From: a virus
Length of the DNA: 49,357 bases
Virus record (IMG/VR): IMGVR_UViG_3300022750_000017
Span: 1-49,357 of that record
Reading direction: 5' to 3' (one strand)
Shown here in pieces: positions 1-49,357 of the stretch (within the stretch, counting starts at the first letter, position 1; every line of letters begins with the position of its first letter). The notes under the pieces are model-generated. The model searched no databases. It was not told where the DNA came from and saw only the letters and a list, made by a program, of their open reading frames with translations. Made by a program: the position numbers and the translations under genes.

Positions 1-192
1 CTGGTTTACGATGGGTGGGATGAGGACGAGGTTGTCCAACTTATCGCAAGCGACATCCAAGCCGCTTACACTCGTGGCCTAGAGGATGCGGCTAACCTGT
101 GCGCTATCGCCGCAACCAACACCGAGTCAGACGAAGCCGAACTTGAGCTATATAAAGCGGCTCATGAAATCCGGAAAATTGGTGTCTCTTGA
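1..192 (+). CDS. Partial small phage protein (5' end outside window)
   Basis: The frame is open from base 1 to a TGA at 190-192, giving 63 residues with no start inside the window, so the N-terminus is missing. The fragment is acidic and probably helical, with an Ala-rich stretch (RGLEDAANLCAIAA) like the one in the 84-residue protein at 42561-42815 of allele B. The next gene starts on a TTG that overlaps this stop (TTGA), which supports it as the upstream member of the operon. Function unknown. Confidence 0.7.
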   Translation: MVYDGWDEDEVVQLIASDIQAAYTRGLEDAANLCAIAATNTESDEAELELYKAAHEIRKIGVS

Positions 193-362
193 AAATCCCC
201 ATCACCGACCAAATCACCGAAGCCCGCCGCTGGCTGAGTGTGCTGCCGGCGGGTCCACGGCGGGACTCTGCTGAGGGGATCGTTCTTACACTTGAGTTTA
301 TGAAGGCCTACAGAGACGAGTTCTATTTATTCATGGCCGCTAGGTCTAGAGGAGAGAAGTGA
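189..362 (+). CDS. Small conserved protein, TTG start (allele A)
   Basis: The protein has 57 residues and begins with TTG at 189-191, overlapping the preceding stop as TTGA. It starts MKIPITDQITEARRWL and is nearly the same protein as the ATG-started gene at 43292-43474, which confirms the unusual start and frame. The conserved core includes WLSVLPAGPRRD followed by an acidic, aromatic helix. No domain recognised; it is a small early-operon protein of unknown function. Confidence 0.8.
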   Translation: MKIPITDQITEARRWLSVLPAGPRRDSAEGIVLTLEFMKAYRDEFYLFMAARSRGEK

Positions 363-646
363 TGGCATACTGCGACACATGCGCTTTTTACAAAGCGGGG
401 CACGGAGGCGATGGTCATTGCTCCAACCCGTTCAATGCAGAAGTTAAATGGATAGGAGGTGGAGAGTATTCGAGCAGCGAACAGGTATTGATCCCAATGA
501 GAACGGATATCGGCATGGTTTGTGACCTGCATACAAATGCATTCAAGACAAATCACAGACGCCTTGCCGATCTAGTCAAACTCGAAAGAACTCCAGATAT
601 GAAGCCATGGGACCCGACTAAGGTAGTTCGCCAAACTTCCCCTTGA
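362..646 (+). CDS. Cys-rich small protein
   Basis: ATG 362-364 overlaps the previous stop (TGATG); a GTG at 359 is the alternative start. The 94-residue product begins MAYCDTCAFYKAG and continues with HC and a later C/H pair (VCDLH), an arrangement that could bind a metal ion. The gene at the same place in allele B (43455-43757) is a different, also Cys-containing protein, so this position is mosaic. Function unknown; metal binding is inferred only from Cys/His spacing. Confidence 0.75.
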   Translation: MAYCDTCAFYKAGHGGDGHCSNPFNAEVKWIGGGEYSSSEQVLIPMRTDIGMVCDLHTNAFKTNHRRLADLVKLERTPDMKPWDPTKVVRQTSP

Positions 647-671
647 CACTCCCGCAATAGCCATCTAAAAC
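643..671 (+). promoter_or_regulatory. Sigma70-type promoter (allele A)
   Basis: A perfect TTGACA (643-648) is followed after 17 bases by TAAAAC (666-671). The same element with the same 17-base spacing lies at 43732-43760 before the corresponding gene of allele B, while the flanking genes differ. The -35 box overlaps the stop of the upstream gene. A strong ribosome site (AAGGAG) and the gene at 701 follow. The -10 is weak, so activity is inferred. Confidence 0.6.
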
Positions 672-700
672 AAACGCAGAGATTAAGGAGAGATAGAATT

Positions 701-1165
701 ATGGCGCAGCACACACGAGACGAATTACGAGACCTCGTAGCACGTTTGAATGCATACGCCGAGGCTGACGCTAGTGGCGAAAGTCTAGGGGCTAACAAAA
801 CCCCAACCGCCTTCCGTTGGACACCTGAGATGTCCGCCGTATTCCCGGTACGGCTTACGATGTCGCAGCTTACCGCGATGTGGTTGGCATTGCATGACGC
901 GGCTGAGTATACCGCTGTCGGTGCGCTTACTGAGCCAACGGAGGAGGATGAGCCATCCACACCTCTTAACGACATAGACAAGGCTAATGGATGGGTCGAG
1001 TGGAACGGCGGTTCTTGCCCTGTAGGCAGCAAAGTTTGGCACCAACGGAAATACCGTGATGGGCTAGTTGGAGGCAAAACCACACCAGACATGGCTGGAG
1101 ACTACCATTGGAATCATGACGGTGGAAACGCTGACATCATTGCTTATCGAGTGCTGCCATCATGA
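701..1165 (+). CDS. Phage protein with WTPxMSAVFPVRL core and C-terminal GWxEW module
   Basis: The 154-residue protein starts at ATG 701 with AAGGAG nine or so bases upstream. Its middle (WTPEMSAVFPVRLTMSQLTA) is nearly identical to that of the 161-residue protein at 44004-44489, whereas the first 40 residues and the tail differ, so the gene is a mosaic. The C-terminal part (GWVEWNGGSCPVGSKV then DIIAYRVLP) resembles a small module that also makes up the 66-residue protein at 46712-46912. It overlaps the next gene by ATGA. Function unknown. Confidence 0.8.
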   Translation: MAQHTRDELRDLVARLNAYAEADASGESLGANKTPTAFRWTPEMSAVFPVRLTMSQLTAMWLALHDAAEYTAVGALTEPTEEDEPSTPLNDIDKANGWVEWNGGSCPVGSKVWHQRKYRDGLVGGKTTPDMAGDYHWNHDGGNADIIAYRVLPS

Positions 1166-1362
1166 CCACCCTCCACATCATCCGGGACGATGAACCAATC
1201 CTAGTCCACCTAGACTGGCAAAGCTGCGACGACCAAATCTGGGGTGTAACGGCCCACACCCGTACCGGCCTCGCCATCCCCCTATCCCCCACCGAAGAAA
1301 CCGACGCGCTAGAGAAAATCTACTCTGAGATGCCTTCGGTTAATTATTATGAGCTTTATTGA
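1162..1362 (+). CDS. Small acidic conserved protein (allele A)
   Basis: The 66-residue product begins MTTLHIIRDDEPILVHLDW and ends SVNYYELY. It differs from the copy at 44486-44686 at only a few residues, and most base differences fall at third codon positions, which supports coding. The start overlaps the upstream stop (ATGA). No family recognised. Confidence 0.85.
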   Translation: MTTLHIIRDDEPILVHLDWQSCDDQIWGVTAHTRTGLAIPLSPTEETDALEKIYSEMPSVNYYELY

Positions 1363-1373
1363 GGAGAATGATC

Positions 1374-1760
1374 GTGGCTAAGTTTAAGATTGGTGATCGG
1401 GTTCGGGTAGTTAACCCTCGTGAAGCGTCACTTAGTGACAACGGTAAGGAATTCACCATCAAAACTGATGAGGGCTTGTGGGGAGGCGAACAAAGTTGGC
1501 ACGGTCCTGGTGTAAGTTATAGACATAAAGAAGGTGCCCTTGAACTAATCGAACCCACCTCTCAAGGCCCCGTCCGCACCAAGACTGTGAAAGAGGTGGT
1601 TCCTGGGGAATACGGAGAGGTTACGGTTGGCAATGCTATGCTTTCAAAGGCATATGTTAAAATTGCCGACGCATACGGTCGCGCTGTTAGCCTTAACGCC
1701 ACCGAACTCCGCGCCGCCGCAGCTACCCTACTCGAAATTGCAGAGGCCCTTGATGCGTGA
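1374..1760 (+). CDS. Conserved phage protein with SH3-like N-terminus (GTG start)
   Basis: I place the start at GTG 1374, seven bases after GAGGAG (1361-1366); ATG 1368 is too close to that site. The 128-residue protein begins MAKFKIGDRVRVV, a KOW/SH3-like beta opening. Its second half (PTSQGPVRTKTVKEVVPG and TELRAAAATLLEIAEAL) is shared with the 135-residue protein at 44697-45104, but the first half is not, so the N-terminal domain has been exchanged between alleles. Function unknown. Confidence 0.75.
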   Translation: MAKFKIGDRVRVVNPREASLSDNGKEFTIKTDEGLWGGEQSWHGPGVSYRHKEGALELIEPTSQGPVRTKTVKEVVPGEYGEVTVGNAMLSKAYVKIADAYGRAVSLNATELRAAAATLLEIAEALDA

Positions 1761-1962
1761 AATCATCGGCGCACTTTCCTTCGTTGTCGCGGTGATAACT
1801 GCAGGTTACATAGGCTGGATTTCGCATGAAGAAGTGATGCTCCAAGAGTGCCGCCGTCAACACAATGTTTACGCCTGCGATGTTATCGCTATACCAGTCA
1901 ACCCAGACGGCCAGCCTTTAGATTTGGCCGATCCGTTTCACCCAGAGGAGCCTACTTCATGA
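1753..1962 (+). CDS. Small single-pass membrane protein
   Basis: ATG 1753 lies inside the end of the upstream gene. The 69-residue protein has one N-terminal membrane segment (IIGALSFVVAVITAGYIGWI, about residues 4-23) and then a soluble acidic region with two cysteines (C33 and C42 approximately). The next gene starts at 1959 with an ATGA overlap. Allele B carries a different soluble 86-residue gene at the matching place (45101-45361). Confidence 0.7.
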   Translation: MREIIGALSFVVAVITAGYIGWISHEEVMLQECRRQHNVYACDVIAIPVNPDGQPLDLADPFHPEEPTS

Positions 1963-2144
1963 GCCAATTCGTCAAACTCGGGAATACGTGGTTTCGTCCA
2001 GAGGATGTTAAATGGTTTGCGGATAGTTCGATTTATGGCAGGACCAAGCTACATATGGTCGATGGCAATGAATGGAACGTCGAGGAACGGCCGGACAACG
2101 TTGCTAAGGTATTAAACAATGCAATGAGGGAGCCTACTAAATGA
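1959..2144 (+). CDS. Small hypothetical protein
   Basis: ATG 1959 overlaps the upstream stop by ATGA, and the stop at 2142-2144 overlaps the next start in the same way. The 61 residues begin MSQFVKLGNTWFRPEDVKWF and look like a compact beta/alpha domain (VDGNEWNVEERPDNVAKVL). It has no counterpart in allele B. The tight coupling on both sides is the main support. Confidence 0.7.
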   Translation: MSQFVKLGNTWFRPEDVKWFADSSIYGRTKLHMVDGNEWNVEERPDNVAKVLNNAMREPTK

Positions 2145-2245
2145 CCATTACTACCCACCACCCCATTTCCACAGCCCTTGCTATTCTGGCTGTCGTTTGG
2201 GTTCTGACGATGGAAAATGGAGTACTATCGTGGCTCGGACTGTAA
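2141..2245 (+). CDS. Tiny membrane protein, 34 aa (allele A)
   Basis: The ORF runs from ATG 2141 to TAA 2243-2245. It encodes a single hydrophobic helix (ISTALAILAVVWVLTM). The allele B copy at 45358-45459 has 33 residues with the same core, and within the core the base differences (GCT/GCC, ATT/ATC, CTG/CTC) are silent. That is good evidence that this very short gene is translated. Function unknown. Confidence 0.75.
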   Translation: MTITTHHPISTALAILAVVWVLTMENGVLSWLGL

Positions 2246-2502
2246 GCCCCCTCTCGTTCGTTTATAAATGGAAATTAGGCGTTGGCCTCACAGCCGCCCT
2301 GCAAGAAGAAATCGACGTTTACGGCGACGATCACGAATGGCTATACCTCGCAAGCCGCGTCCCAAGCGTGCAACTCGCTGCGTCGGTGCCAGGAGAACTT
2401 GAGTGCATTATCGCTGCGCGTGACGAGGCTGTGAGCGCGGCTGAGGCTGAAATGGTTGGCGTAGTCGCTGTTACGGAGAAGCCGGTATGGTTGAGGCTGT
2501 AG
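2230..2502 (+). CDS. Small conserved protein, GTG start (allele A)
   Basis: The 90-residue protein matches the ATG-started gene at 45640-45903 (shared SPLS, VGVGLEAAL-like, RVPSVQ and IAARDEAVSAAEAEMVGVV). In this allele no ATG aligns; GTG 2230 is the nearest usable start and overlaps the tiny membrane gene. The C-terminal half is an Ala/Glu-rich helix. No domain recognised. Confidence 0.7.
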   Translation: MARTVSPLSFVYKWKLGVGLTAALQEEIDVYGDDHEWLYLASRVPSVQLAASVPGELECIIAARDEAVSAAEAEMVGVVAVTEKPVWLRL

Positions 2503-2711
2503 CATCGGGGCAGACAAATGCAGGGTCTCTGCTGGATGAGTGCGGCGATGTATTGTTCAACCTAGGCCCGCATGCGTGGGCTAACGATCAAGCCGCCGCC
2601 GTCATCAACGTTTTGCGTCGGCGTGGTTTACTAAATCTACAGGGCGTCGAACTATGCCGCGCTGAACTAGGGCCTCTGTCTGTGGCTGTGATTAAGGAGA
2701 ATATGGGATGA
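2487..2711 (+). CDS. Small conserved protein (allele A)
   Basis: The 74-residue product shares SLLDECGD, INVLRRRGLLN-like and CRAELGPLSVAVIKENMG with the 66-residue gene at 46111-46311. The last 40 or so bases are almost identical between alleles and include the AAGGAG ribosome site used by the next gene. Function unknown. Confidence 0.8.
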   Translation: MVEAVASGQTNAGSLLDECGDVLFNLGPHAWANDQAAAVINVLRRRGLLNLQGVELCRAELGPLSVAVIKENMG

Positions 2712-3052
2712 GTAATTGGGCGAGAGTTGGGATGAAAGTCGTTTGCGTGGATGGAAAGCCGCGACCAAAGTCCAGGAAAACGCTGCCGAAAGAAGGTGTT
2801 GTTTATACCATAGCTTGGGTTGGTCATCACGAATGGCCATCCGGCAACACCGGCATCGGTGTTCACCTAATCGAAATTTCTAGGCCTGTTGGAACGAATG
2901 GCAGAGTAAACCCATACGGCATTGATCGCTTCCGCCCAGTTATCAGCCCCGAACAAGACATCGCCCTTTTCCAGGCCCTCTGCCCCGGCCTTCCTGTCGT
3001 TCCACCAGCTGTTTTAAAGCCGCGCCTGCCATCTAAGGAGAATGCAAATTGA
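2708..3052 (+). CDS. Phage protein, SH3-like (allele A)
   Basis: The 114-residue protein starts MSNWARVGMKVVCVDGKP, a beta-rich opening typical of small phage proteins with VGxKVVCV starts. It is homologous to 46308-46658, with the shared end (FRPVIS, DIALFQALCPGLPVVPPAV). Its start overlaps the upstream stop by ATGA. A TTG-started gene follows with a TTGA overlap. Function unknown. Confidence 0.8.
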   Translation: MSNWARVGMKVVCVDGKPRPKSRKTLPKEGVVYTIAWVGHHEWPSGNTGIGVHLIEISRPVGTNGRVNPYGIDRFRPVISPEQDIALFQALCPGLPVVPPAVLKPRLPSKENAN

Positions 3053-3366
3053 CCTATATCGGCGCAAAAATACGGATGAATGGTGAGCGGCAACGGTATA
3101 CCGTAACGGCATGTAATGATCGTTTTGCGATTATGACTAAGCCATTCAATGCCAAGAAAACATACCTATACACGATCACTGGTCTACATCGTGACGTTCG
3201 TGGCCCGTGCAATTTCATATTCGGCTTGCCTAGCGATGTTAACTCGCCAGATTTAGCCAAAGAGGCTTTTGAAATGTTGGAGGCAGGGTCGATGGAAGTC
3301 GGTTACCGTCGCTGCATTCCACTCCACAGTGCAGAGCGGGCGCAGCTTATGGAAATCAACCTATAG
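3049..3366 (+). CDS. Hypothetical protein, TTG start
   Basis: The 105-residue ORF begins with TTG 3049, overlapping the previous stop as TTGA, with AAGGAG eight bases upstream (3035-3040). The sequence (MTYIGAKIRMNGERQRYTV) is probably beta-rich. It is present only in allele A. No family recognised. Confidence 0.75.
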   Translation: MTYIGAKIRMNGERQRYTVTACNDRFAIMTKPFNAKKTYLYTITGLHRDVRGPCNFIFGLPSDVNSPDLAKEAFEMLEAGSMEVGYRRCIPLHSAERAQLMEINL

Positions 3367-3401
3367 CTATGCCGGTGGAGACTGAGGCTAGGTGTAGCGG
3401 A

Positions 3402-3430
3402 TTGACCGCAAGCGTGTGACGGGCGATTAT
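3402..3430 (+). promoter_or_regulatory. Promoter upstream of the methyltransferase
   Basis: TTGACC (3402-3407), a 17-base spacer and GATTAT (3425-3430) precede the methyltransferase. Allele B has TTGACG, 17 bases and GATTAT at 46655-46683 although the downstream gene is different and most of the spacer has diverged. Conservation of just these boxes supports a real promoter that would also feed the primase. Confidence 0.5.
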
Positions 3431-3456
3431 ACTAGTCCGGATTTGGAGGGAATGGC

Positions 3457-4236
3457 ATGGAGAAACTGAAGGTATTGGACCTGTTTTCAGGGATAGGCGG
3501 GTTTAGCCTTGGCCTTGAACGAACGGGTGGATTTGAAGCCGTAGCGTTTTGCGAAATTGAGGAATTTCCACGGCGCGTTTTAGCTAAACACTGGCCGAAG
3601 GTGCCCTGTTACAATGACGTTAGAACGCTCAATTCAGAAAGGCTTACCCAAGATGGAATTACCGGAATTGATGTTATTTCCGGAGGGTTCCCTTGCCAAG
3701 ACCTCAGCGTTGCAGGCAAACTCGCTGGCCTTAAAGGCAAAAGGAGCGGGTTATGGTCAGAAATCGCCCGTTTGGTTAGCGAACTACGACCACGATACGT
3801 TATCGTGGAGAACGTCGCAAATCTGCTTAGTGGCCCTAGCGAACAACCAGGCGGATGGTTTGGCAGAGTACTCGGGGACTTGGCCGAGCTCGGGTATGAT
3901 GCGGAATGGGAAAACATACCAGCGTCAGCCTTGGGCGCTCCCCACCGCCGCGAACGTATCTGGGTTGTTGCCTACCCCAGTGAAATACGACAGTACGCCG
4001 GGAGGGCCGGGGAATCACTACAAGGGGTTGGGTTGGATGGGCAAGCACCAATGGCCGACGCCCACAGCCAACGACGCGAAGAACCGGACTTTACCGCCAT
4101 CACAGAAGGACAGAGACTCAATAGTTGGGTCGCTTCTGCGAACTGGAACCCGTGGGGTGCTGAACCCGCCGTGGGTCGAGTGGTTGATGGGTATCCAATG
4201 GGGTGGACAGAATTGCAGCCCTTGGAAACTCCGTAG
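3457..4236 (+). CDS. C5 cytosine DNA methyltransferase (3' end frameshifted)
   Basis: The protein transfers a methyl group from S-adenosylmethionine to cytosine C5 in DNA. Motif I (LDLFSGIGGFSLGLE) is at residues 7-21, the catalytic PCQ loop at 79-81, motif VI ENV at 118-120 and motif VIII RRERIWVVAY at about 164-173. The start is ATG 3457 with GGAGGG upstream. The C-terminal motifs IX-X (GRVVDG then RIAALGNSVVPQIPELIG) are split: the second part is in the -1 frame, ending at TAG 4287-4289. One base is apparently missing in the GGG at 4189-4191. It may be an assembly indel or a true mutation. Allele B lacks the gene, so it behaves as a strain-specific cargo gene, probably for protection from host restriction. 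Confidence 0.88.
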   Translation: MEKLKVLDLFSGIGGFSLGLERTGGFEAVAFCEIEEFPRRVLAKHWPKVPCYNDVRTLNSERLTQDGITGIDVISGGFPCQDLSVAGKLAGLKGKRSGLWSEIARLVSELRPRYVIVENVANLLSGPSEQPGGWFGRVLGDLAELGYDAEWENIPASALGAPHRRERIWVVAYPSEIRQYAGRAGESLQGVGLDGQAPMADAHSQRREEPDFTAITEGQRLNSWVASANWNPWGAEPAVGRVVDGYPMGWTELQPLETP

Positions 4237-4282
4237 TCCCCCAAATCCCGGAACTCATTGGCCGCGCCATCTTAGCCGCTAA
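3614..4282 (+). CDS. Overprinted gene in +1 frame of the methyltransferase
   Basis: A 222-residue frame is open across most of the methyltransferase gene. It is not a random shadow: it contains the order AKTSALQ, YDHDTLSWRTSQ, SGTWPSSGMMRNGKTYQRQP, LLPTP, WPTPTANDAK and LNPPWVEWLMG, which I recognise from a protein family often annotated beside or as part of phage C5 methyltransferases. Starts at ATG 3614, 3653 or 3671 are possible. The usual ending (YPMGWTELQPLETP) is present in the adjacent frame ending at 4236, and the same one-base gap at 4189-4191 that breaks the methyltransferase restores it. Function unknown; modification-related by association. Confidence 0.65.
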   Translation: MTLERSIQKGLPKMELPELMLFPEGSLAKTSALQANSLALKAKGAGYGQKSPVWLANYDHDTLSWRTSQICLVALANNQADGLAEYSGTWPSSGMMRNGKTYQRQPWALPTAANVSGLLPTPVKYDSTPGGPGNHYKGLGWMGKHQWPTPTANDAKNRTLPPSQKDRDSIVGSLLRTGTRGVLNPPWVEWLMGIQWGGQNCSPWKLRSPPNPGTHWPRHLSR

Positions 4283-4300
4283 CACCTAGGCCCCCATGTC

Positions 4301-6841
4301 ATGCCCAATTTTGAGCCTGCTCTGCTTGAGCAGATAAAATCGCTTGTCCCTATTTCTAAGCTAGTGGGTGAGTATGTTGCTGCCGCGCCTAAGTCATCGC
4401 CGGGGGATTTGTGGGCATGTTGCGTGTTCCACAGCGAAAAGACGCCTTCGTTCCATGCGGAGGACGCAAAGGGTATTTACCATTGCTTTGGCTGTGGTGC
4501 GACAGGCGACCATTTTCAATGGGTGCAGGAGCATCAGGGAATGTCGTTTACGCAAGCCGTGGAGGCCGTCGCCGATCGTGCTGGGGTCTCACTGCCCGGA
4601 AAGCGCTCAGAACCGTCAGCGGCCAAGCCACGTGCCCGCTATGATGCTCCTAAGATCGTTGACCCATACGAGGGTTATGAGTTCTTACCGGTGCCAGCGG
4701 GTACGCCGCCTATTGTTCCCGGCCAACGTACGCCGGAACTGCGCAACCCTAAGAAAGCGGGCACCGACAAGTTTACCACGCACTACAAGCCATCGGCTGT
4801 GCATGCCTATCAAAACGCCGCTGGCGAACTGCTAGGCTACGTTCTGCTAGTCGAGTTCAAAGATGGCAAGTCAACGCCTGGAATTTGGTGGGCGCGTGGA
4901 CCGGATGGCTTTGAGGGGTGGTGTCACGGATCGATTGATAACTGCCCACTGTATGGCCTGCCGGAGCTACTGGCGCATCCTGATAAACAGGTGCTTGTAG
5001 TGGAGGGTGAGAAGTGCCGTAGAGCGGCAGACAAGGCGCTACAGGGCCGCGTGGTTGTCGTTAGCTGGTGCGGTGGCACAAACCGCGTTGATCGGTCTGA
5101 CTGGTCGCCGCTGGCGGGGCGCAGTGTCATCTGGTGGGCTGATAATGACGAAGAAGGCCGTAAGGCCATGGCTGAGGCACGCAGCCTAGCCAAATCTGCC
5201 AAGAACAAGCGCGTCACCCCTTACGGGGATAAAGGCGGCGACGTTGCCGACCTGATCTTAGCCGGTGGCTCGGTTGCAGATTATATCAAGGCTAATATCA
5301 GTGAGTGGCCTATTGAGGCTGAGAAGGAGAATGAGGATGAGTCTGTATTGGAAGTTGCTAGTGGTTTGCGTGGTTCTGACGGGGTTCGTGAATTCGGTAA
5401 ACAATCTGGAAAAGAGCCGCAGACTGGACCGACTGGAGCAGATCGTCCTATCTCTCAGCGAAAGCCGCTAAATGCTACTCCTCGCAGCCCTTCTCCTCTC
5501 CCTAGCCCTGAACCTGATGCAACGCCTAAAGATCATATCCCTCCAACACAAAGTGTGGGTGGCGGGGGTCGAGAAGCGATTGTGGTTGAGGAAACGATAG
5601 ATTGGGAAGGCACGTTAGATAGGACCGACAAAGCCACACTGACGCTCAACAGCCTGCACAACTCAGTTGTCATCTTGCAGTATCACAGCGATTTCAAGGG
5701 CGTTTATGCGTACAACGAATTTGCGCAGGAAATATCTCTACTCACAAAACCGCCGTATGATCCTCCTAACAGGCCGTTCAAGCCCCGGCTATTGACAGAA
5801 ATCGATGTTATCGCCAATGCTGCGTACATGGAAACGATGGGTGAATATAAGCTAAAGCCTAAAGTGAACGATATGATATTGGCTATTAAGCGTGTTGCTG
5901 ATTTCAACAGGTTTAACCCTGTTAGAGATGCGCTAGACGCTTTGGAGTGGGACGGTCTACCGCGCCTGCAAGGTGGAACAGTTGGCAAGCGCTTGTTCAA
6001 AAGCTTTGCAGTTCGTTATCTCGGCGCTGAGGATACACCTATCAATGCTGCTTTCGTCAAGCGCAGCCTGATATCGGCTATTGCCAGAGCGTACAAACCC
6101 GGCTGTAAAGTTGATACCATGCTTGTGTTAGAAGGCGGGCAAGGCAAATTCAAATCTACCAGCCTTAACGTCCTCGCTGACGCTATCGCACCCGGTCTTT
6201 TCACGGATGAAATGAGCGATCCAGGCTCCAAGGACGCTGGTCTGCAGATGCAGGGCCGATGGATCATTGAGATTTCAGAACTTGATGCATTCCGTAAATC
6301 CGATGTATCAACCCTCAAGGCATGGTTAGCCCGTAAAGAGGATCGGTTCCGCAGGCCTTATGGTAAGAACGTCGAGGATTTCCCGCGCTCGTGCATTATG
6401 ATCGGAACCGTCAACCCGCCTGAGAGTGGTTATCTACGCGACCCGACCGGCGCTCGTCGGTGGTGGCCTATTCGATGCGGTGAATTTGATCTGCCGTTAC
6501 TCAAAGAGGATGCCCGTCAAATATGGGCTGAGGCACGTCACCTGTATATGGCCGGAGAACAATGGCACCTAACAGATGAGGAGGAGGAACAAGCTAAGGT
6601 TGTGCAGCAAGCCCGTTATGAGCATGATCCTTGGGCTACATTGATCAGTGACTATCTGGCTAGACACACCGACGCAGTTAAAAGTACAGTAAAGCTCATC
6701 GATCTTATGGGGGATATGTGCCTACGCATTCCACCCGAACGCCGAACGCCGCTGCAGAACGCTCGTATTGAGGCGCATCTAAATATGATTGGCTGGCGAA
6801 AATTAGATAGCGGGACGTATCGAAGGGGCTTGACGCCCTAA
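4301..6841 (+). CDS. Primase-helicase: CHC2 zinc finger, Toprim, VirE/VapE domain (allele A)
   Basis: The 846-residue replication protein has an N-terminal CHC2 zinc finger (C41, H44, C62, C65), which binds template DNA, then a Toprim primase domain from about residue 228 (LVVEGEKCRRAADKAL, later WWADNDEEG). A low-complexity linker (about 335-425) follows, then a VirE/VapE P-loop ATPase (LEGGQGKFKST at about 608-618, later TVNPP and GARRWWPI). It would make primers and unwind DNA at the fork. The allele B copy (46924-49311) is 51 residues shorter because of the linker. The linker DNA carries two nested ORFs at 5337-5600. The third residue of motif GKFKS is typical of this phage family. Confidence 0.93.
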   Translation: MPNFEPALLEQIKSLVPISKLVGEYVAAAPKSSPGDLWACCVFHSEKTPSFHAEDAKGIYHCFGCGATGDHFQWVQEHQGMSFTQAVEAVADRAGVSLPGKRSEPSAAKPRARYDAPKIVDPYEGYEFLPVPAGTPPIVPGQRTPELRNPKKAGTDKFTTHYKPSAVHAYQNAAGELLGYVLLVEFKDGKSTPGIWWARGPDGFEGWCHGSIDNCPLYGLPELLAHPDKQVLVVEGEKCRRAADKALQGRVVVVSWCGGTNRVDRSDWSPLAGRSVIWWADNDEEGRKAMAEARSLAKSAKNKRVTPYGDKGGDVADLILAGGSVADYIKANISEWPIEAEKENEDESVLEVASGLRGSDGVREFGKQSGKEPQTGPTGADRPISQRKPLNATPRSPSPLPSPEPDATPKDHIPPTQSVGGGGREAIVVEETIDWEGTLDRTDKATLTLNSLHNSVVILQYHSDFKGVYAYNEFAQEISLLTKPPYDPPNRPFKPRLLTEIDVIANAAYMETMGEYKLKPKVNDMILAIKRVADFNRFNPVRDALDALEWDGLPRLQGGTVGKRLFKSFAVRYLGAEDTPINAAFVKRSLISAIARAYKPGCKVDTMLVLEGGQGKFKSTSLNVLADAIAPGLFTDEMSDPGSKDAGLQMQGRWIIEISELDAFRKSDVSTLKAWLARKEDRFRRPYGKNVEDFPRSCIMIGTVNPPESGYLRDPTGARRWWPIRCGEFDLPLLKEDARQIWAEARHLYMAGEQWHLTDEEEEQAKVVQQARYEHDPWATLISDYLARHTDAVKSTVKLIDLMGDMCLRIPPERRTPLQNARIEAHLNMIGWRKLDSGTYRRGLTP
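5337..5471 (+). CDS. Nested small membrane protein inside primase linker (allele A only)
   Basis: This 44-residue ORF lies in the +1 frame of the primase. It starts at ATG 5337 with AAGGAG seven bases upstream. The product has an N-terminal membrane helix (YWKLLVVCVVLTGFV, about residues 4-18) and a charged amphipathic tail (NLEKSRRLDRLEQIVLSLSE). It sits in a roughly 150-base segment absent from allele B, where the primase frame reads as an odd linker. It ends TAA directly before ATG 5472. Function unknown; the topology resembles an inner-membrane spanin or small toxin, but nothing specific identifies it. Confidence 0.5.
   Translation: MSLYWKLLVVCVVLTGFVNSVNNLEKSRRLDRLEQIVLSLSESR
5472..5600 (+). 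CDS. Nested small membrane protein inside primase linker (allele A)
   Basis: The 42-residue ORF in the +1 frame begins on the ATG directly after the TAA of the upstream nested ORF and stops at TAG 5598-5600. It has a hydrophobic N-terminus (MLLLAALLLSLALNLM) and a basic tail (QRLKIISLQHKVWVAGVE, ending RKR). Allele B keeps it at 47933-48070. In the shared part four of five changed codons are silent here, while all five affected primase codons change amino acid. After the TAG the changes are silent for the primase. This is direct evidence that this frame is under selection. Confidence 0.65.
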   Translation: MLLLAALLLSLALNLMQRLKIISLQHKVWVAGVEKRLWLRKR

Positions 6842-6857
6842 CCCCCGCATGTATTAT
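6830..6857 (+). promoter_or_regulatory. Promoter at end of primase gene
   Basis: TTGACG (6830-6835) and TATTAT (6852-6857) are separated by 16 bases; the -35 overlaps the last codons of the primase. Both boxes are also in allele B (49300-49327). It faces two hairpins and a terminator, then the tRNA genes. It may drive a short RNA or the tRNAs. Confidence 0.5.
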
Positions 6858-6863
6858 GCAGTT

Positions 6864-6935
6864 GTGTTCGCGGCTCCCCTGCCGCTTGAGCCTTAAGGGC
6901 CACCGGTGTTCCTCCCACTGGTGGCCCTATTTTAT
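6864..6935 (+). ncRNA. Candidate short RNA ending at an intrinsic terminator
   Basis: A transcript from the promoter at 6830-6857 would start near 6864, pass a small GC hairpin (arms 6870-6874 and 6881-6885) and reach the terminator at 6897-6935, making an RNA of about 70 bases without an ORF. The proposal rests only on promoter and terminator spacing. The alternative is that the terminator simply ends the primase operon. Confidence 0.3.
6897..6935 (+). terminator. Intrinsic terminator after primase operon
   Basis: The arms GGGCCACCGG (6897-6906) and CTGGTGGCCC (6918-6927) form an eight- to ten-pair stem, followed by TATTTTAT. It closes the rightward replication operon just before the tRNA genes. 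Confidence 0.7.
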
Positions 6936-43121: not shown

Positions 43122-43295
43122 ATGGCTAAACATCGATACTACCTGGAGGATGGCATGGGAATTATCTCTATCCAAACGCGCAAGACCAAGCCTACCATGG
43201 GAAAGGTCATTACAGCTGATGGAGAAAAATGGCAGGTCTGGTACATCGAGTGGATGGGTGACGACTGCAATGCTCGGTGTGAGCGGGTTAAATGA
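43122..43295 (+). CDS. Small beta-rich protein, 57 aa
   Basis: ATG 43122 follows the upstream stop with GGGAGAGTGAG in front. The protein (MAKHRYYLEDGMGIISIQTR) has VITADGEKWQVWYIEWMGDD and a short Cys/Arg tail. Its stop overlaps the next ATG. Unknown function. Confidence 0.65.
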   Translation: MAKHRYYLEDGMGIISIQTRKTKPTMGKVITADGEKWQVWYIEWMGDDCNARCERVK

Positions 43296-43474
43296 AAGTC
43301 CCCATCACCGACCAAATCACCGAAGCCCGCCGCTGGCTGAGTGTGCTGCCTGCGGGTCCGAGGCGGGATGCGTGTGAGGGGGTGGTGCTGACGTTGGAGT
43401 TTATGAAAACCTACAGAGACGAGTTCTACGAGTTTATGGCTGAAGGAGCAAGAAATGACCGGAGCCAGCGTTAA
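43292..43474 (+). CDS. Small conserved protein (allele B)
   Basis: The 60-residue protein (MKVPITDQITEARRWLSVLP) is the allele B version of the TTG-started gene at 189-362; here the start is ATG. Only the last few residues differ clearly. It overlaps the following gene by 20 bases. Confidence 0.8.
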   Translation: MKVPITDQITEARRWLSVLPAGPRRDACEGVVLTLEFMKTYRDEFYEFMAEGARNDRSQR

Positions 43475-43757
43475 AATAACAAACACAGAGACGGGCGAAA
43501 GCCGCATTTACCTCGATGAATATTTCGACGGCGAAACGGGCGTTTGGGCATACGAGGACGGCAATCAATCCTGCGATTGCAACCGTAGCCTGTATTTCGA
43601 ATATGCTCACGGCATAAGCCCGCAAGACGCGGATATGGCAGAATGCTCAACTGTAGGAAATGTCTACCGTATTGATAGCATTTTTTGGGATGGCCGGTTT
43701 TGGATGTCTGAGCTAAAGCCCAACATTACCCTTGACACTCCCGCAACAGCAATCTAA
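43455..43757 (+). CDS. Hypothetical protein, 100 aa
   Basis: ATG 43455 follows AAGGAG. The protein (MTGASVKITNTETGESRIYL) has acidic and aromatic strands with CDC (CDCNRSLYFEYAHG) and ends within the promoter at 43732. It replaces the Cys-rich protein of allele A at the same place. Function unknown. Confidence 0.75.
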   Translation: MTGASVKITNTETGESRIYLDEYFDGETGVWAYEDGNQSCDCNRSLYFEYAHGISPQDADMAECSTVGNVYRIDSIFWDGRFWMSELKPNITLDTPATAI

Positions 43758-43760
43758 AAC
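43732..43760 (+). promoter_or_regulatory. Sigma70-type promoter (allele B)
   Basis: TTGACA (43732-43737), 17 bases, TAAAAC (43755-43760), matching the element at 643-671. AAGGAG and ATG 43789 follow. Confidence 0.6.
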
Positions 43761-43788
43761 AAACGCAGAGATTAAGGAGAGATAGAGA

Positions 43789-44007
43789 ATGTACGCAGAC
43801 CTCCCGCCAAGAACGCCAGAACAAGAACGCCAATACCAAGTTTATCTCGTGCATAAAGAGAAGCAGGATAAAATTGATGCTCTACGTAACGCCGCGCCTG
43901 ACCTACTGGAAGCGCTTCTAGACGCGAAGTATGCGTTGTACGGCAACGGTCCGGCTAACCCCAAGATGCTTGCAGCAATCTCTAAGGCTCAGGGGGAGCG
44001 CAAATGA
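43789..44007 (+). CDS. Small helical protein, 72 aa
   Basis: The protein (MYADLPPRTPEQERQYQVYL) contains LRNAAPDLLEALLDAKYALY, a motif typical of small phage proteins of unknown role. It is inserted here relative to allele A. ATGA overlap with the next gene. Confidence 0.75.
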   Translation: MYADLPPRTPEQERQYQVYLVHKEKQDKIDALRNAAPDLLEALLDAKYALYGNGPANPKMLAAISKAQGERK

Positions 44008-44489
44008 CCACCCACAGCGCCACTCTTAAAAAGATCAACCTCGCCGGTGTCGTTGAATACGCTCCACGCATTCACATCAATGATGTCGAATATCAGCGCG
44101 TCGGTGTTCCTAGTGCGTTTAACTGGACCCCCGCCATGTCCGCCGTATTCCCGGTGCGGCTTACGATGTCGCAGCTTACCGCGATGTGGGATGCTTTGCA
44201 TGGTGCGGCTGAGTATGAGGAGCTTGGTTCTAAATCCGTCTGCGCTTGGCCGGATTGCACGTGTCCAACTGAGTCTTATTGCAAGCCTTCCGTTCCAAAG
44301 CCTCTTGCTGAGGAAAAGCCTAACGCTGACGGTTGGATTATTTGGTATATTGGTTACGCAGTGCCAAAGGGTCTCGTTGATGTTCGCACTGTAAGTAAGG
44401 GAGATTTTCTTGGCGTCTCTAGCTCTGGCATCGAGTGGTCTGCTATGGATAGCGGATATAGCATAACGCACTGGCGTCCCGCCAAATGA
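44004..44489 (+). CDS. Phage protein with WTPxMSAVFPVRL core (allele B)
   Basis: The 161-residue protein shares only its middle (WTPAMSAVFPVRLTMSQLTA) with 701-1165. The N-terminus differs, and after a Cys-containing insert (CAWPDCTCPTESYC) the C-terminal part (DGWIIWYIGYAVPKG) is a diverged version of the GWxEW module. This shows recombination within the gene. Function unknown. Confidence 0.8.
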   Translation: MTTHSATLKKINLAGVVEYAPRIHINDVEYQRVGVPSAFNWTPAMSAVFPVRLTMSQLTAMWDALHGAAEYEELGSKSVCAWPDCTCPTESYCKPSVPKPLAEEKPNADGWIIWYIGYAVPKGLVDVRTVSKGDFLGVSSSGIEWSAMDSGYSITHWRPAK

Positions 44490-44686
44490 CCACTCTCCAC
44501 ATCATTCGCGACGACGAACCAATCCTAGTCCACCTAGACTGGCAAAGCTGCGATGACCAAATCTGGGGCTTAACAGCCCACACCCGCACCGGCCTCGCCA
44601 TCCCCCTATCCCCCACCGAAGAAAACGACGCTCTAGAGAAAATCTACTCTGAGATGCCTTCGGTTAATTATTATGAGCTTTATTGA
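44486..44686 (+). CDS. Small acidic conserved protein (allele B)
   Basis: The 66-residue protein is almost identical to that at 1162-1362, with only a few changes (for example GLTAH for GVTAH). ATGA overlap with the upstream gene. Confidence 0.85.
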   Translation: MTTLHIIRDDEPILVHLDWQSCDDQIWGLTAHTRTGLAIPLSPTEENDALEKIYSEMPSVNYYELY

Positions 44687-44696
44687 GGATAATGAG

Positions 44697-45104
44697 ATGA
44701 TCGTAGAAGTTGGCGAATTTTACAAGACTCGTGATGGCCGGAAGGTTGGACCTATGAAAATTTGGGGTTCTGCGACAGACGCCGATACTGGCGATGTTCT
44801 ATTCGATACGATGGCCGAAGGTTTTACATCGTATTGTTGGCGTAAGAGCGGTGAAAATGGGGATAGCCAAGTAGAGGGTTTTGATTACCTAGACCTCGTA
44901 GCCCTCTGGCAAGAACCCACCTCTCAAGGCCCCGTCCGCACCAAGACTGTGAAAGAGGTGGTGCCTGGTAACTACGGGATCGTATTTGTGCGCAAGCTGT
45001 CACGTGGAGCCGAGATTGGCATTCAAGGCCACTTCCATACTGCCACCGAACTCCGCGCCGCCGCAGCTACCCTACTCGAAATTGCAGAGGCTTTGGAAGA
45101 ATGA
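44697..45104 (+). CDS. Conserved phage protein, exchanged N-terminal domain (allele B)
   Basis: ATG 44697 gives 135 residues (MIVEVGEFYKTRDGRKVGPM). The C-terminal half (PTSQGPVRTKTVKEVVPG, then TELRAAAATLLEIAEAL) matches 1374-1760, but the first half is unrelated, another sign of domain swapping. An ATG at 44673 lies inside the upstream gene and lacks a ribosome site. Function unknown. Confidence 0.75.
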   Translation: MIVEVGEFYKTRDGRKVGPMKIWGSATDADTGDVLFDTMAEGFTSYCWRKSGENGDSQVEGFDYLDLVALWQEPTSQGPVRTKTVKEVVPGNYGIVFVRKLSRGAEIGIQGHFHTATELRAAAATLLEIAEALEE

Positions 45105-45361
45105 CCTACGGAAACGACTACCGAAACCAACTAACCGACTACAGCAACGCCGAAACCGAATACGCCAAGGCGCAACGTGAGGCTCGTGAGAAGGGCCATA
45201 AAGCCGCGCAACGTATCGCTGCCCTTATCTATGCTGATCTTGACGTAGAGGTCACACCGGAAGCCATTCAACGCTTTGTTAAGGGTCGGTGGGCTAAGTT
45301 AGCACCATTGGCGCATCTGGTTCACGAAGCGCCGGATACAACGAAAGGCACAGTCAAATGA
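45101..45361 (+). CDS. Small charged protein, 86 aa
   Basis: The protein (MTYGNDYRNQLTDYSNAETE) is helical and rich in charged residues, ending HLVHEAPDTTKGTVK. Allele A has a membrane protein and a 61-residue gene here instead. ATGA overlaps on both sides. Confidence 0.75.
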   Translation: MTYGNDYRNQLTDYSNAETEYAKAQREAREKGHKAAQRIAALIYADLDVEVTPEAIQRFVKGRWAKLAPLAHLVHEAPDTTKGTVK

Positions 45362-45459
45362 CCCTAACCCACCACCCCATTTCCACAGCCCTTGCCATCC
45401 TCGCTGTCGTTTGGGTTCTGACGATGGACAACGGCCTGCTCAGTATGTGGGGTTTGTGA
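45358..45459 (+). CDS. Tiny membrane protein, 33 aa (allele B)
   Basis: ATG 45358 to TGA 45457-45459. It is the counterpart of 2141-2245 with the same hydrophobic core (ISTALAILAVVWVLTM) and mostly silent base differences. Its TGA overlaps the next ATG (TGATG). Confidence 0.75.
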   Translation: MTLTHHPISTALAILAVVWVLTMDNGLLSMWGL

Positions 45460-45650
45460 TGGCAGAACTCCAAGTCAACACCGCCCAACAGCGCGCCCAC
45501 TATCGCGGCTTCACCATTGAGGAGTCTATTGATGGGTGGGAATGGTGCCACAAAGATTACAGCGAGAACGGTATTTCAGGGATATGCGACACGATTTTCG
45601 ATGCCATCGACGCAGTTGATAAATGGTGGGAGAACGGCGATGAGCATTAG
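45459..45650 (+). CDS. Small acidic protein, 63 aa
   Basis: ATG 45459 overlaps the previous stop. The protein (MAELQVNTAQQRAHYRGFTI) continues EESIDGWEWCHKDYSENGIS and ends DAVDKWWENGDEH. It has no counterpart in allele A. Unknown function. Confidence 0.75.
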   Translation: MAELQVNTAQQRAHYRGFTIEESIDGWEWCHKDYSENGISGICDTIFDAIDAVDKWWENGDEH

Positions 45651-45903
45651 CCCCCTATCGCTGAAATATCGCTGGCGCGTAGGCGTTGGCCTAGAAGCGG
45701 CGCTATCCGAGGATATCGAAACCTACGGCGACGGTCACGATTGGATGTACCGCGCCTCTCGCGTCCCAAGCGTACAGTCTATGTTTGCAACGCCAGGAGA
45801 GGCTGAGTGTGCTATCGCCGCTAGGGACGAGGCCGTGAGCGCGGCTGAGGCGGAAATGGTTGGTGTGGTTGCTGTTACGGAGGGCTATGATGCAAGACGA
45901 TGA
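45640..45903 (+). CDS. Small conserved protein (allele B)
   Basis: ATG 45640 gives 87 residues (MSISPLSLKYRWRVGVGLEA), homologous to the GTG-started gene at 2230-2502, including AARDEAVSAAEAEMVGVVAV. It overlaps both neighbours. Confidence 0.8.
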   Translation: MSISPLSLKYRWRVGVGLEAALSEDIETYGDGHDWMYRASRVPSVQSMFATPGEAECAIAARDEAVSAAEAEMVGVVAVTEGYDARR

Positions 45904-46114
45904 AAGCTTTACCTTGGTATTTGAAGGTAACATTAGGCGTTTCGAGAAAAATCCCTTGCGGATTGAAACAGAATTTGGAACTCCCTACGCCGTGGGTGTC
46001 GGTGATGCTTTTGCAAAAGAAGATGCTCTAATCGAGTTGATGGAACGAGCTTTTACTTGCCTTGAAAACGATGATGTTGAAGGCGCAATGCAAGCGCTTA
46101 AGGAGCAGCTATGA
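45890..46114 (+). CDS. Small hypothetical protein, 74 aa
   Basis: Start ATG 45890 (after GGAGGG) gives MQDDESFTLVFEGNIRRFEK; ATG 45887 is just upstream. The protein ends DDVEGAMQALKEQL. Present only in allele B. Function unknown. Confidence 0.7.
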   Translation: MQDDESFTLVFEGNIRRFEKNPLRIETEFGTPYAVGVGDAFAKEDALIELMERAFTCLENDDVEGAMQALKEQL

Positions 46115-46311
46115 CCGTCAACGCCCGCTCTCTGCTAGACGAATGTGCCGACGCCATTTTCCTAAGCCGGAGCCCTGCCGCAGAGGCGCAAGCTGAGGCT
46201 GTATTGGCCGTAATTCGTCGTCGCGGCCTCTTAAATGACGCTGGCGTAGCTCTATGCCGTGCTGAACTAGGGCCGCTGTCTGTGGCTGTGATTAAGGAGA
46301 ATATGGGATGA
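46111..46311 (+). CDS. Small conserved protein (allele B)
   Basis: The 66-residue protein (MTVNARSLLDECADAIFLSR) is the counterpart of 2487-2711, with the identical end CRAELGPLSVAVIKENMG. ATGA overlaps. Confidence 0.8.
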   Translation: MTVNARSLLDECADAIFLSRSPAAEAQAEAVLAVIRRRGLLNDAGVALCRAELGPLSVAVIKENMG

Positions 46312-46658
46312 GTAACTTTCGGGTTGGGCAGAAGGTGGTTTGTGTAAACTCAAAAAACACTCCCGGGAAAAGTTGGTATGGCGATGTTCCGGTTGTTGGA
46401 CAAACTTATACCATCGAAGATGTTTTCATTGGGCCGATAACTGGCACAATTTCACTTCTGCTTGAGGAAATAAAGCGATCAGAATGGGAACGTGAAAGTA
46501 TTGGGGTCGATAAATTAGGGTATCATGCATGGCGCTTTCGGCCTGTTATCAGCCAGGCCGACGACATCGCCCTTTTCCACGCACTCTGCCCCGGCCTTCC
46601 TGTCGTTCCACCAGCGGTAGTGCCTCCGCGTGTACCGGTGACTAGCCATAGCGATTGA
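46308..46658 (+). CDS. Phage protein, SH3-like (allele B)
   Basis: The 116-residue protein (MSNFRVGQKVVCVNSKNTPG) is homologous to 2708-3052, with the shared end DIALFHALCPGLPVVPPAV. Its VGQKVVCV start and TYTIEDVF strand suggest a small beta barrel. Function unknown. Confidence 0.8.
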   Translation: MSNFRVGQKVVCVNSKNTPGKSWYGDVPVVGQTYTIEDVFIGPITGTISLLLEEIKRSEWERESIGVDKLGYHAWRFRPVISQADDIALFHALCPGLPVVPPAVVPPRVPVTSHSD

Positions 46659-46683
46659 CGAATAGCAGGCGGCGGGCGATTAT
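46655..46683 (+). promoter_or_regulatory. Promoter before the primase gene (allele B)
   Basis: TTGACG (46655-46660), 17 bases, GATTAT (46678-46683), the counterpart of 3402-3430. GGAGGG and the gene at 46712 follow. Confidence 0.5.
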
Positions 46684-46711
46684 AGGCGTCCGAATTTAGG
46701 AGGGAAATGAG

Positions 46712-46912
46712 ATGAGTGAATGGGTTATGCATGACGGGTGGTCAGACCCGAAAGTCTCTGGCGACACTCTCGTGGAGGTGAGATACCGAGACGGGAGAAT
46801 TGATAAAGGCGTCATGCATGATTGGGACCAAGCGTGGCAGTGGAATGGCAGCGAAGAGGGTGAAACCTCAGGCGGCGCTATTGTTGAATATCGCGTAATC
46901 CCTAACCTCTAG
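46712..46912 (+). CDS. Small GWxEW-module protein replacing the methyltransferase
   Basis: The 66-residue protein (MSEWVMHDGWSDPKVSGDTL) has VEVRYRDGRIDKG and ends GGAIVEYRVIPNL, the same plan as the C-terminal module of 701-1165. It sits where allele A has the methyltransferase, between the shared promoter and the primase. Function unknown. Confidence 0.75.
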   Translation: MSEWVMHDGWSDPKVSGDTLVEVRYRDGRIDKGVMHDWDQAWQWNGSEEGETSGGAIVEYRVIPNL

Positions 46913-46923
46913 GCCCCCATGTC

Positions 46924-49311: not shown

Positions 49312-49357
49312 CCCCCGCATGTATTATGCAGTTGTGTTCGCGGCTCCCCTGCCGCTT
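49249..49357 (+). repeat. 109-base exact repeat of 6779-6887
   Basis: The last 109 bases repeat 6779-6887 without a difference; the first mismatch upstream is at 49248 versus 6778. The repeat runs flush to the window's end. This is the pattern of a contig closing on itself through a shared stretch. Confidence 0.9.
49300..49327 (+). promoter_or_regulatory. Promoter at end of primase gene (allele B)
   Basis: TTGACG and TATTAT with a 16-base spacer, identical to 6830-6857. The window ends 30 bases later, in the first hairpin. Confidence 0.45.

Follow-up and report, generated by a model that had tools for sequence, protein, structure and literature searches.

Does a single stretch of viral DNA specify, in two overlapping frames, both a C5-cytosine DNA methyltransferase (MTase) and a second conserved protein and, if so, how is that protein related to the enzyme? 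The locus that raises this question lies in IMG/VR virus record IMGVR_UViG_3300022750_000017, positions 1-49,357 of which constitute our window, i.e., the whole 49,357-nucleotide stretch that was analysed. A sequence-only reading had noticed family-typical motifs in register in two frames, and had inferred dual coding over about 600 bases. We name the MTase frame alpha, and the frame nested within it one base later (+1) beta. The features of alpha are as follows:

3457-4236, + strand: alpha, the C5-cytosine methyltransferase ORF as sequenced, 259 aa (PF00145 E=2.6e-42, residues 4-176 only; PHROG 363)
3475-3501, + strand: alpha motif I, LDLFSGIGG (from the sequence; columns nearly invariant in alignment A2)
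3688-3699, + strand: alpha motif IV, catalytic FPCQ (PCQ invariant in alignments A2 and A7)
3808-3816, + strand: alpha motif VI, ENV (E and N invariant in alignments A2 and A7)
3934-3972, + strand: alpha motif VIII, GAPHRRERIWVVA (R.R invariant in alignments A2 and A7; end of the Pfam match)

Motifs I, IV (PCQ), VI (ENV) and VIII of a C5-cytosine DNA methyltransferase are all present in this one frame, and the AlphaFold model of the core resembles M.HhaI and M.HaeIII, with very low confidence for residues ~170-260. Motifs IX and X are not on the same polypeptide as this core: the alpha stretch between VIII and X contains no conserved motif IX, and an IX-like motif is found only in the +1 frame. 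A separate feature of the record is that its two ends (190-6887 and 43293-49357) are diverged copies, 74-94% identical in blocks, with a primase-like gene among the shared parts; where the first copy has the alpha/beta gene, a short ORF (~46712-46911) with the same flanks takes its place in the second. The similar ends could stem from a duplication, from the assembly of two related phages into one record, or from a cassette swap.

The +1 frame has two candidate starts in the window, one at 3614 and an alternative ATG at 3653, and is family-like until 4192, after which it is out of register. Its features are:

3614-4282, + strand: beta, the nested +1-frame ORF as sequenced, 222 aa (PHROG 1008 E=1.9e-27; profile score above all synonymous shuffles)
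3803-3820, + strand: beta motif SWRTSQ, on the alpha ENV region (position-wise shuffle comparison)
3878-3910, + strand: beta motif TWPSSGMMRNG, on alpha DLAELGYDAEW (position-wise shuffle comparison)
4052-4081, + strand: beta module WPTPTANDAK, TRD-like, on alpha ADAHSQRR (frame entropies; in-frame counterpart in single-chain MTases)
4160-4192, + strand: beta motif IX region LNPPWVEWLMG, on the alpha frame up to GRVVDG (frame entropies; motif matrix)

The overlap that had been placed at 3614-4236 is correct, and the three pairings on which the idea of dual coding was built are confirmed by the sequence to be in register: LGYDAEW (3889-3909, MTase frame) lies over SGMMRNG (3890-3910, +1 frame), ADAHSQRR (4054-4077) over WPTPTANDAK (4052-4081), and GRVVDG (4174-4191) over VEWLMG (4175-4192). 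Beta's most conserved stretch is the C-terminal GxLNPxWVEWLMGFPxGWTDL, preceded by TPTAxDxK modules, and all 43 of the beta proteins tested match PHROG 1008, ‘DNA methyltransferase’.

An open frame with recognisable motifs might nevertheless be a mere by-product, kept open and motif-like by the codons or composition of the MTase, with no protein made. MTase codons do make a contribution: on their own, after shuffling, they still score ~30-65 bits with the beta profile, and two actinophage MTases of the single-chain type reach 40-46 bits in their +1 frame. SGMMRNG is also partly forced, its last G being wholly dictated by the alpha Trp codon and its N largely dictated; its first G is observed at 1.00 vs 0.20 expected. 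In the same motif, as TWPSSGMMRNG, W (0.99 vs 0.32 in shuffles) and P (0.99 vs 0.34) likewise exceed expectation. For SWRTSQ, the S, W, R, S and Q are observed at 0.88-1.00 vs 0.26-0.44 in shuffles (Q at 100% vs 26% expected), and T at 0.99 vs 0.69.

The distribution of stop codons bears directly on the same issue. The +1 frame of the window has 0 stops in 207 codons; synonymous shuffles of the MTase codons have a mean of 6.9, and never 0 in 300 trials. Across the overlap in 57 loci we counted 0 stops in +1 against 274 expected from synonymous shuffles of alpha. These regions had been chosen as open; a second set (80 loci) was chosen by the MTase alone, and over the first 110 codons after PCQ it contains 5 stops in +1 vs 202 expected, 77 of the 80 loci having none. 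No depletion is seen in the +2 control frame of these loci (338 vs 287 stops), nor in ordinary C5 MTases, nine of which, from bacterial genomes, have 49 stops in +1 vs 54 expected. The only MTase-selected loci with +1 stops soon after PCQ are L078, L111 and L133, which are possibly decayed or mis-sequenced copies.

Another line of evidence is the score against a beta profile trained solely on loci with MTase identity below 50%. The +1 frame of the window reaches 177 bits (shuffles: mean 66, maximum 103), and in 56 of 57 loci the real frame exceeds all 100 shuffles, the lone exception, L025, being truncated by a contig end. Over alpha residues 70-178, the mean conservation of +1 residues is 0.68 vs 0.36 in shuffles. 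Divergence responds to the overlap too: the fourfold third-position difference declines from 0.596 before it to 0.384 inside, and the first-position difference increases from 0.178 to 0.239, both of which are expected since the third position of alpha is the second position of beta in a +1 overlap. Furthermore, a Shine-Dalgarno-like 4-mer precedes the nearest beta ATG in 92 of the 163 loci having an upstream ATG, compared with 17% at random positions. The choice of Asp codons was also considered as a start-codon signal (GAT 40/GAC 27 vs 312/311 elsewhere), and was dropped as the effect is weak. Finally, beta is the better conserved frame in both the WPTPTANDAK region (entropy 2.26 bits vs 2.94 for alpha; 170 loci) and the LNPPWVEWLMG region (0.85 vs 1.57 bits; 157 loci).

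The stop counts, the undepleted ordinary MTases, the near-unanimous shuffle result, the superior conservation of beta at the motif IX region and the Shine-Dalgarno-like enrichment together refute the by-product statistically, and we attach virtually no credence to it. The sequence-only reading would have failed had motif conservation been fully explained by MTase codons; these codons force the motifs in part (the ~30-65 bits), but do not wholly account for their conservation. Beta is a genuine, conserved frame, and it always accompanies an MTase of this type.

How widespread is this pairing? The whole beta alignment was too diverse for profile scans of collections, and a nine-member subset was used instead. 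Loci from the first scan have an MTase overlapping beta in +1 (one, L046, is cut before the MTase). Two later scans provided 160 further loci, 80 from bacterial genomes of many phyla and 80 viral contigs, and in all 160 beta lies in the +1 frame of the MTase (158 by automatic call, 2 by coordinates). It had been proposed that the motif family may still be an overprint of a C5 MTase gene, a proposal that would have been undone by a separate gene with unrelated DNA; the former holds at every profile-found locus, and the latter was not found in the scans. A rare stand-alone copy of beta cannot be excluded, as the later scans kept best matches and the loci are not all independent, the same element being repeated in some contigs. 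When 8 whole genomes were searched independently with each of the two profiles, PF00145 and beta, the hits converged on the same places; PF00145 covers approximately the first 165-220 positions of the beta-overlapped genes there, compared with 1-323 in ordinary MTases. Beta was found in 7/100 genomes (family of G001).

The profile also reaches an enterobacterial group on which it had not been trained (phage N15 gene 58, Escherichia phage K1G, Klebsiella phage KpV2811 and three E. coli prophages), the +1 frames of which score 65-96 bits vs shuffle maxima of 35-53. In phage N15 gene 58 (L382:822-1817) the nested beta frame is unannotated, is open for 242 aa, and scores 95.8 bits vs a shuffle maximum of 53.4. 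Overall, hundreds of phages and bacteria have this arrangement, usually under a single gene annotation. Stop depletion, synonymous-shuffle tests, reduced third-position divergence and universal nesting all support the original inference of two proteins from about 600 bases; what we observe is two conserved frames in fixed association, with the MTase motifs partitioned between them. In XFactor (a Mycobacterium phage, L054:2188-3181), EcoPhCCP1 (L377) and W5_chr3 (L381), it is beta alone that is annotated, and the catalytic alpha ORF is unlisted. The chromosome of a Roseovarius MAG (OX638333.1) has five nested-pair matches of identical score (L170-L174), which suggests multiple near-identical prophages.

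We turn now to the nature of beta. When a matrix of its end stretch is run on nine ordinary C5 MTases, motif IX (RxLTxRExARLQxFP) ranks first in 5 and among the top five in 8. Moreover, the actinophage proteins Ramsey gp69 and Silvy gp53 have TPxxxD modules plus a RLAAAFPEWMMGWPAGWVT segment in frame between motifs VIII and X, in one chain, and the back half of the beta profile finds both in frame with the core (iE 1.2e-10 and 1.8e-10, respectively). Papez gp46 is a single chain with the same end segment and a weaker match (iE 5e-4). That beta carries motif IX is, at the level of sequence comparison, well supported. The assignment depends on this short motif and on the single-chain relatives, and is limited to them since hhalign, comparing profiles, found no significant similarity between beta and ordinary C5 MTases, the predicted model of beta is of low confidence overall (pLDDT 64), and neither Foldseek with that model nor sequence searches of the PDB found a match. 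A search of Pfam with beta found no match either. For the front half (residues 24-86), two helices and a hairpin are predicted with moderate confidence.

The absence of any detectable Pfam or PDB relative of the front half leaves room for beta to be a real protein with its own role, for example in anti-restriction or regulation, that is merely hosted on MTase DNA. We consider this unlikely, without dismissing it: beta occurs only with alphas that have no motif IX, its back half has a homologue in the TPxxxD and motif IX segment that single-chain MTases contain in frame, the beta ORF takes motif X too in the phages Peaches, Andrew and Samy, and M.EcoHK31I provides a precedent. The reading that we favour makes beta a second subunit of the enzyme and not an unrelated protein.

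In the latter three phages (Peaches gp77/76, Andrew gp43/44, and Samy), the core is in one frame and TPxxxD, IX and X are in the +1 frame. Their core stops after VIII, and ribosomal frameshifting could in principle join it to the remainder, so that one protein would be made from the alpha core and the beta-frame TRD and motif IX. Such a device is very improbable for the nested pairs: conservation in +1 already extends over ~70-100 beta residues before any site at which a shift would be useful, beta has start codons and Shine-Dalgarno-like motifs, and nested-type alpha retains a motif X of its own, which would be absent from the fusion. Two further candidates were discarded, namely an inserted endonuclease of the ShiLan type (ruled out, with no insertion and no HNH match) and BsuMI YdiO/YdiP, which proved to be merely an annotation name in one Paenibacillus phage. 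In Silvy gp53 (Mycobacterium phage, L339:544-2196), LLPTPxxxD modules are present in the MTase frame and again in +1, as if they had been copied and then frame-shifted.

We think it highly probable, in the absence of expression or activity data, that the nested genes encode a two-subunit C5-cytosine DNA methyltransferase. Alpha would contribute the catalytic core (motifs I-VIII), plus motif X in intact relatives; beta would have its own start within alpha and be read in the frame one base later. For the front half of beta, which overlies alpha motifs IV-VIII, we infer, without a model of the complex, that it probably binds alpha; the back half would supply the target-recognition modules (TPxxxD) and motif IX. 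The alpha stretch between VIII and X would be without motif IX, and predicted to be disordered, because the DNA there is committed to beta. We infer that the pair probably modifies phage DNA to escape host restriction; that a heterodimer forms, that both subunits are needed, what the target site is and that phage DNA is protected are likewise inferences.

The window's own copy departs from this scheme at its C-terminal end, a point that had escaped the sequence-only reading:

4189-4191, + strand: G run, the one-base length difference of which from relatives swaps the two C-termini (three-frame translation)
4191-4286, + strand: MTase C-terminal motif X (GVDRIAALGNSVVPQIPELIGRAI; segment VSNGVDRIAALGNSVVPQIPELIGRAILAANT, then a stop), in the third frame and detached from alpha (three-frame translation)

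After ~4191 the frames trade roles: the MTase frame ends in a partner-family tail, YPMGWTELQPLETP and a stop, such that the last 14 residues of alpha as sequenced belong to the partner family, and the third-frame segment matches the alpha consensus GVPxRVDRLKALGNAVVPQ. In nearly all other pairs both frames continue straight, alpha outlasting beta, usually by about 30-90 bases, and it is on this basis that we place a one-base difference at the G run. Either a true mutation or a homopolymer error could account for it; a search of viral contigs with the DNA pattern around the G run for near relatives with the one-base change returned 0 matches. As this change leaves alpha without motif X and beta without its tail, the window's copy would appear, judged from its reading frames, to be probably inactive or mis-sequenced.

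How might such a pair have arisen? We hypothesize a two-way overprinting, in which a single-chain C5 MTase became two nested subunits, each half ancestral and half new, and DNA moved between single-chain, split and nested states; in our judgement the chances that this is correct are about even. The front half of beta would be a new domain written over alpha motifs IV-VIII, the alpha VIII-X linker would be new sequence over an ancestral TRD/motif IX frame, and the same DNA would have shifted among the three states in different phages. The hypothesis is an inference from which frame is conserved where. It modifies the suggestion that the motif family arose as an overprint of the MTase, which survives for the front half of beta only; in the back half it is the MTase frame that looks like the overprint, because the beta frame is the more conserved there and matches the TPxxxD/motif IX segment of single-chain enzymes.

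To our knowledge, long, conserved same-strand overlaps have seldom been demonstrated in bacteria and dsDNA phages. Here there are hundreds of examples, including the textbook phage N15, with both proteins having recognisable roles in one enzyme, and the locus is a natural system for studying the evolution of a second protein atop a conserved enzyme core. If two-way overprinting is correct, few long same-strand gene overlaps in DNA phages and bacteria would be as widespread as this one. There is also a practical aspect: many ‘DNA cytosine methyltransferase’ entries represent one of two subunits (beta in XFactor, EcoPhCCP1 and W5_chr3), so the annotated gene expressed alone may yield an inactive enzyme.

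Our literature searches, which were of open-access sources only and do not prove absence, found no description of the arrangement in phages, and no paper that deals with how widespread or how constrained it is or with how the single-chain, split and nested forms are related; the kind of arrangement is known, and its breadth and the two-way overprinting appear to be unreported. The split C5 MTase M.AquI is similar in comprising two polypeptides, the small one with motif IX, and different in that this small subunit bears motif X too, as well as half of the variable region; we know of no full nesting in M.AquI. An out-of-frame gene within a phage methylase gene is also represented by the ShiLan-domain hidden HNH endonuclease (PMC11855218); this is an inserted homing element, whereas the alpha/beta overlap is on the catalytic core itself, with no insertion.

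Nested genes of the beta family are already annotated in K1G, K1ind2, Diva and Bloom. In Escherichia phage K1G, ORF31/ORF30 (‘C-specific methylase’/‘Mte8-like protein’) is a nested +1 pair in which beta matches the profile (E ~3e-23), although the group is diverged and the record shows no function. Paenibacillus phage Diva gp49/gp50 (‘g49 internal gene’) is likewise a nested +1 pair, its beta being 45% identical to that of the window over the matched part, but it is annotated as hypothetical, without analysis. The family name of PHROG 1008, for its part, conceals the overlap of its members with another gene.

A biochemical precedent is M.EcoHK31I. Lee, Kam and Shaw reportedly found in 1995 that the gene for its small subunit lies within that for the large subunit, in a different frame, and that both subunits are needed. 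By that nesting criterion, the window and all 160 profile-found loci qualify, being nested in +1. The ‘Mte8-like’ annotation in K1G is the sole hint of homology between beta and the M.EcoHK31I beta, and it is not backed by a sequence comparison. In M.EcoHK31I, motif IX alone is on the small subunit, and the large subunit has I-VIII and X together with the predicted TRD (PMC3404938). This division of motifs between two polypeptides, shared with M.EaeI, is met in the intact relatives of the window; in the window itself motif X is present but out of frame. What distinguishes the alpha/beta enzymes described here from M.EcoHK31I is that they are solitary phage or prophage enzymes, and that beta carries TPxxxD modules as well as motif IX.
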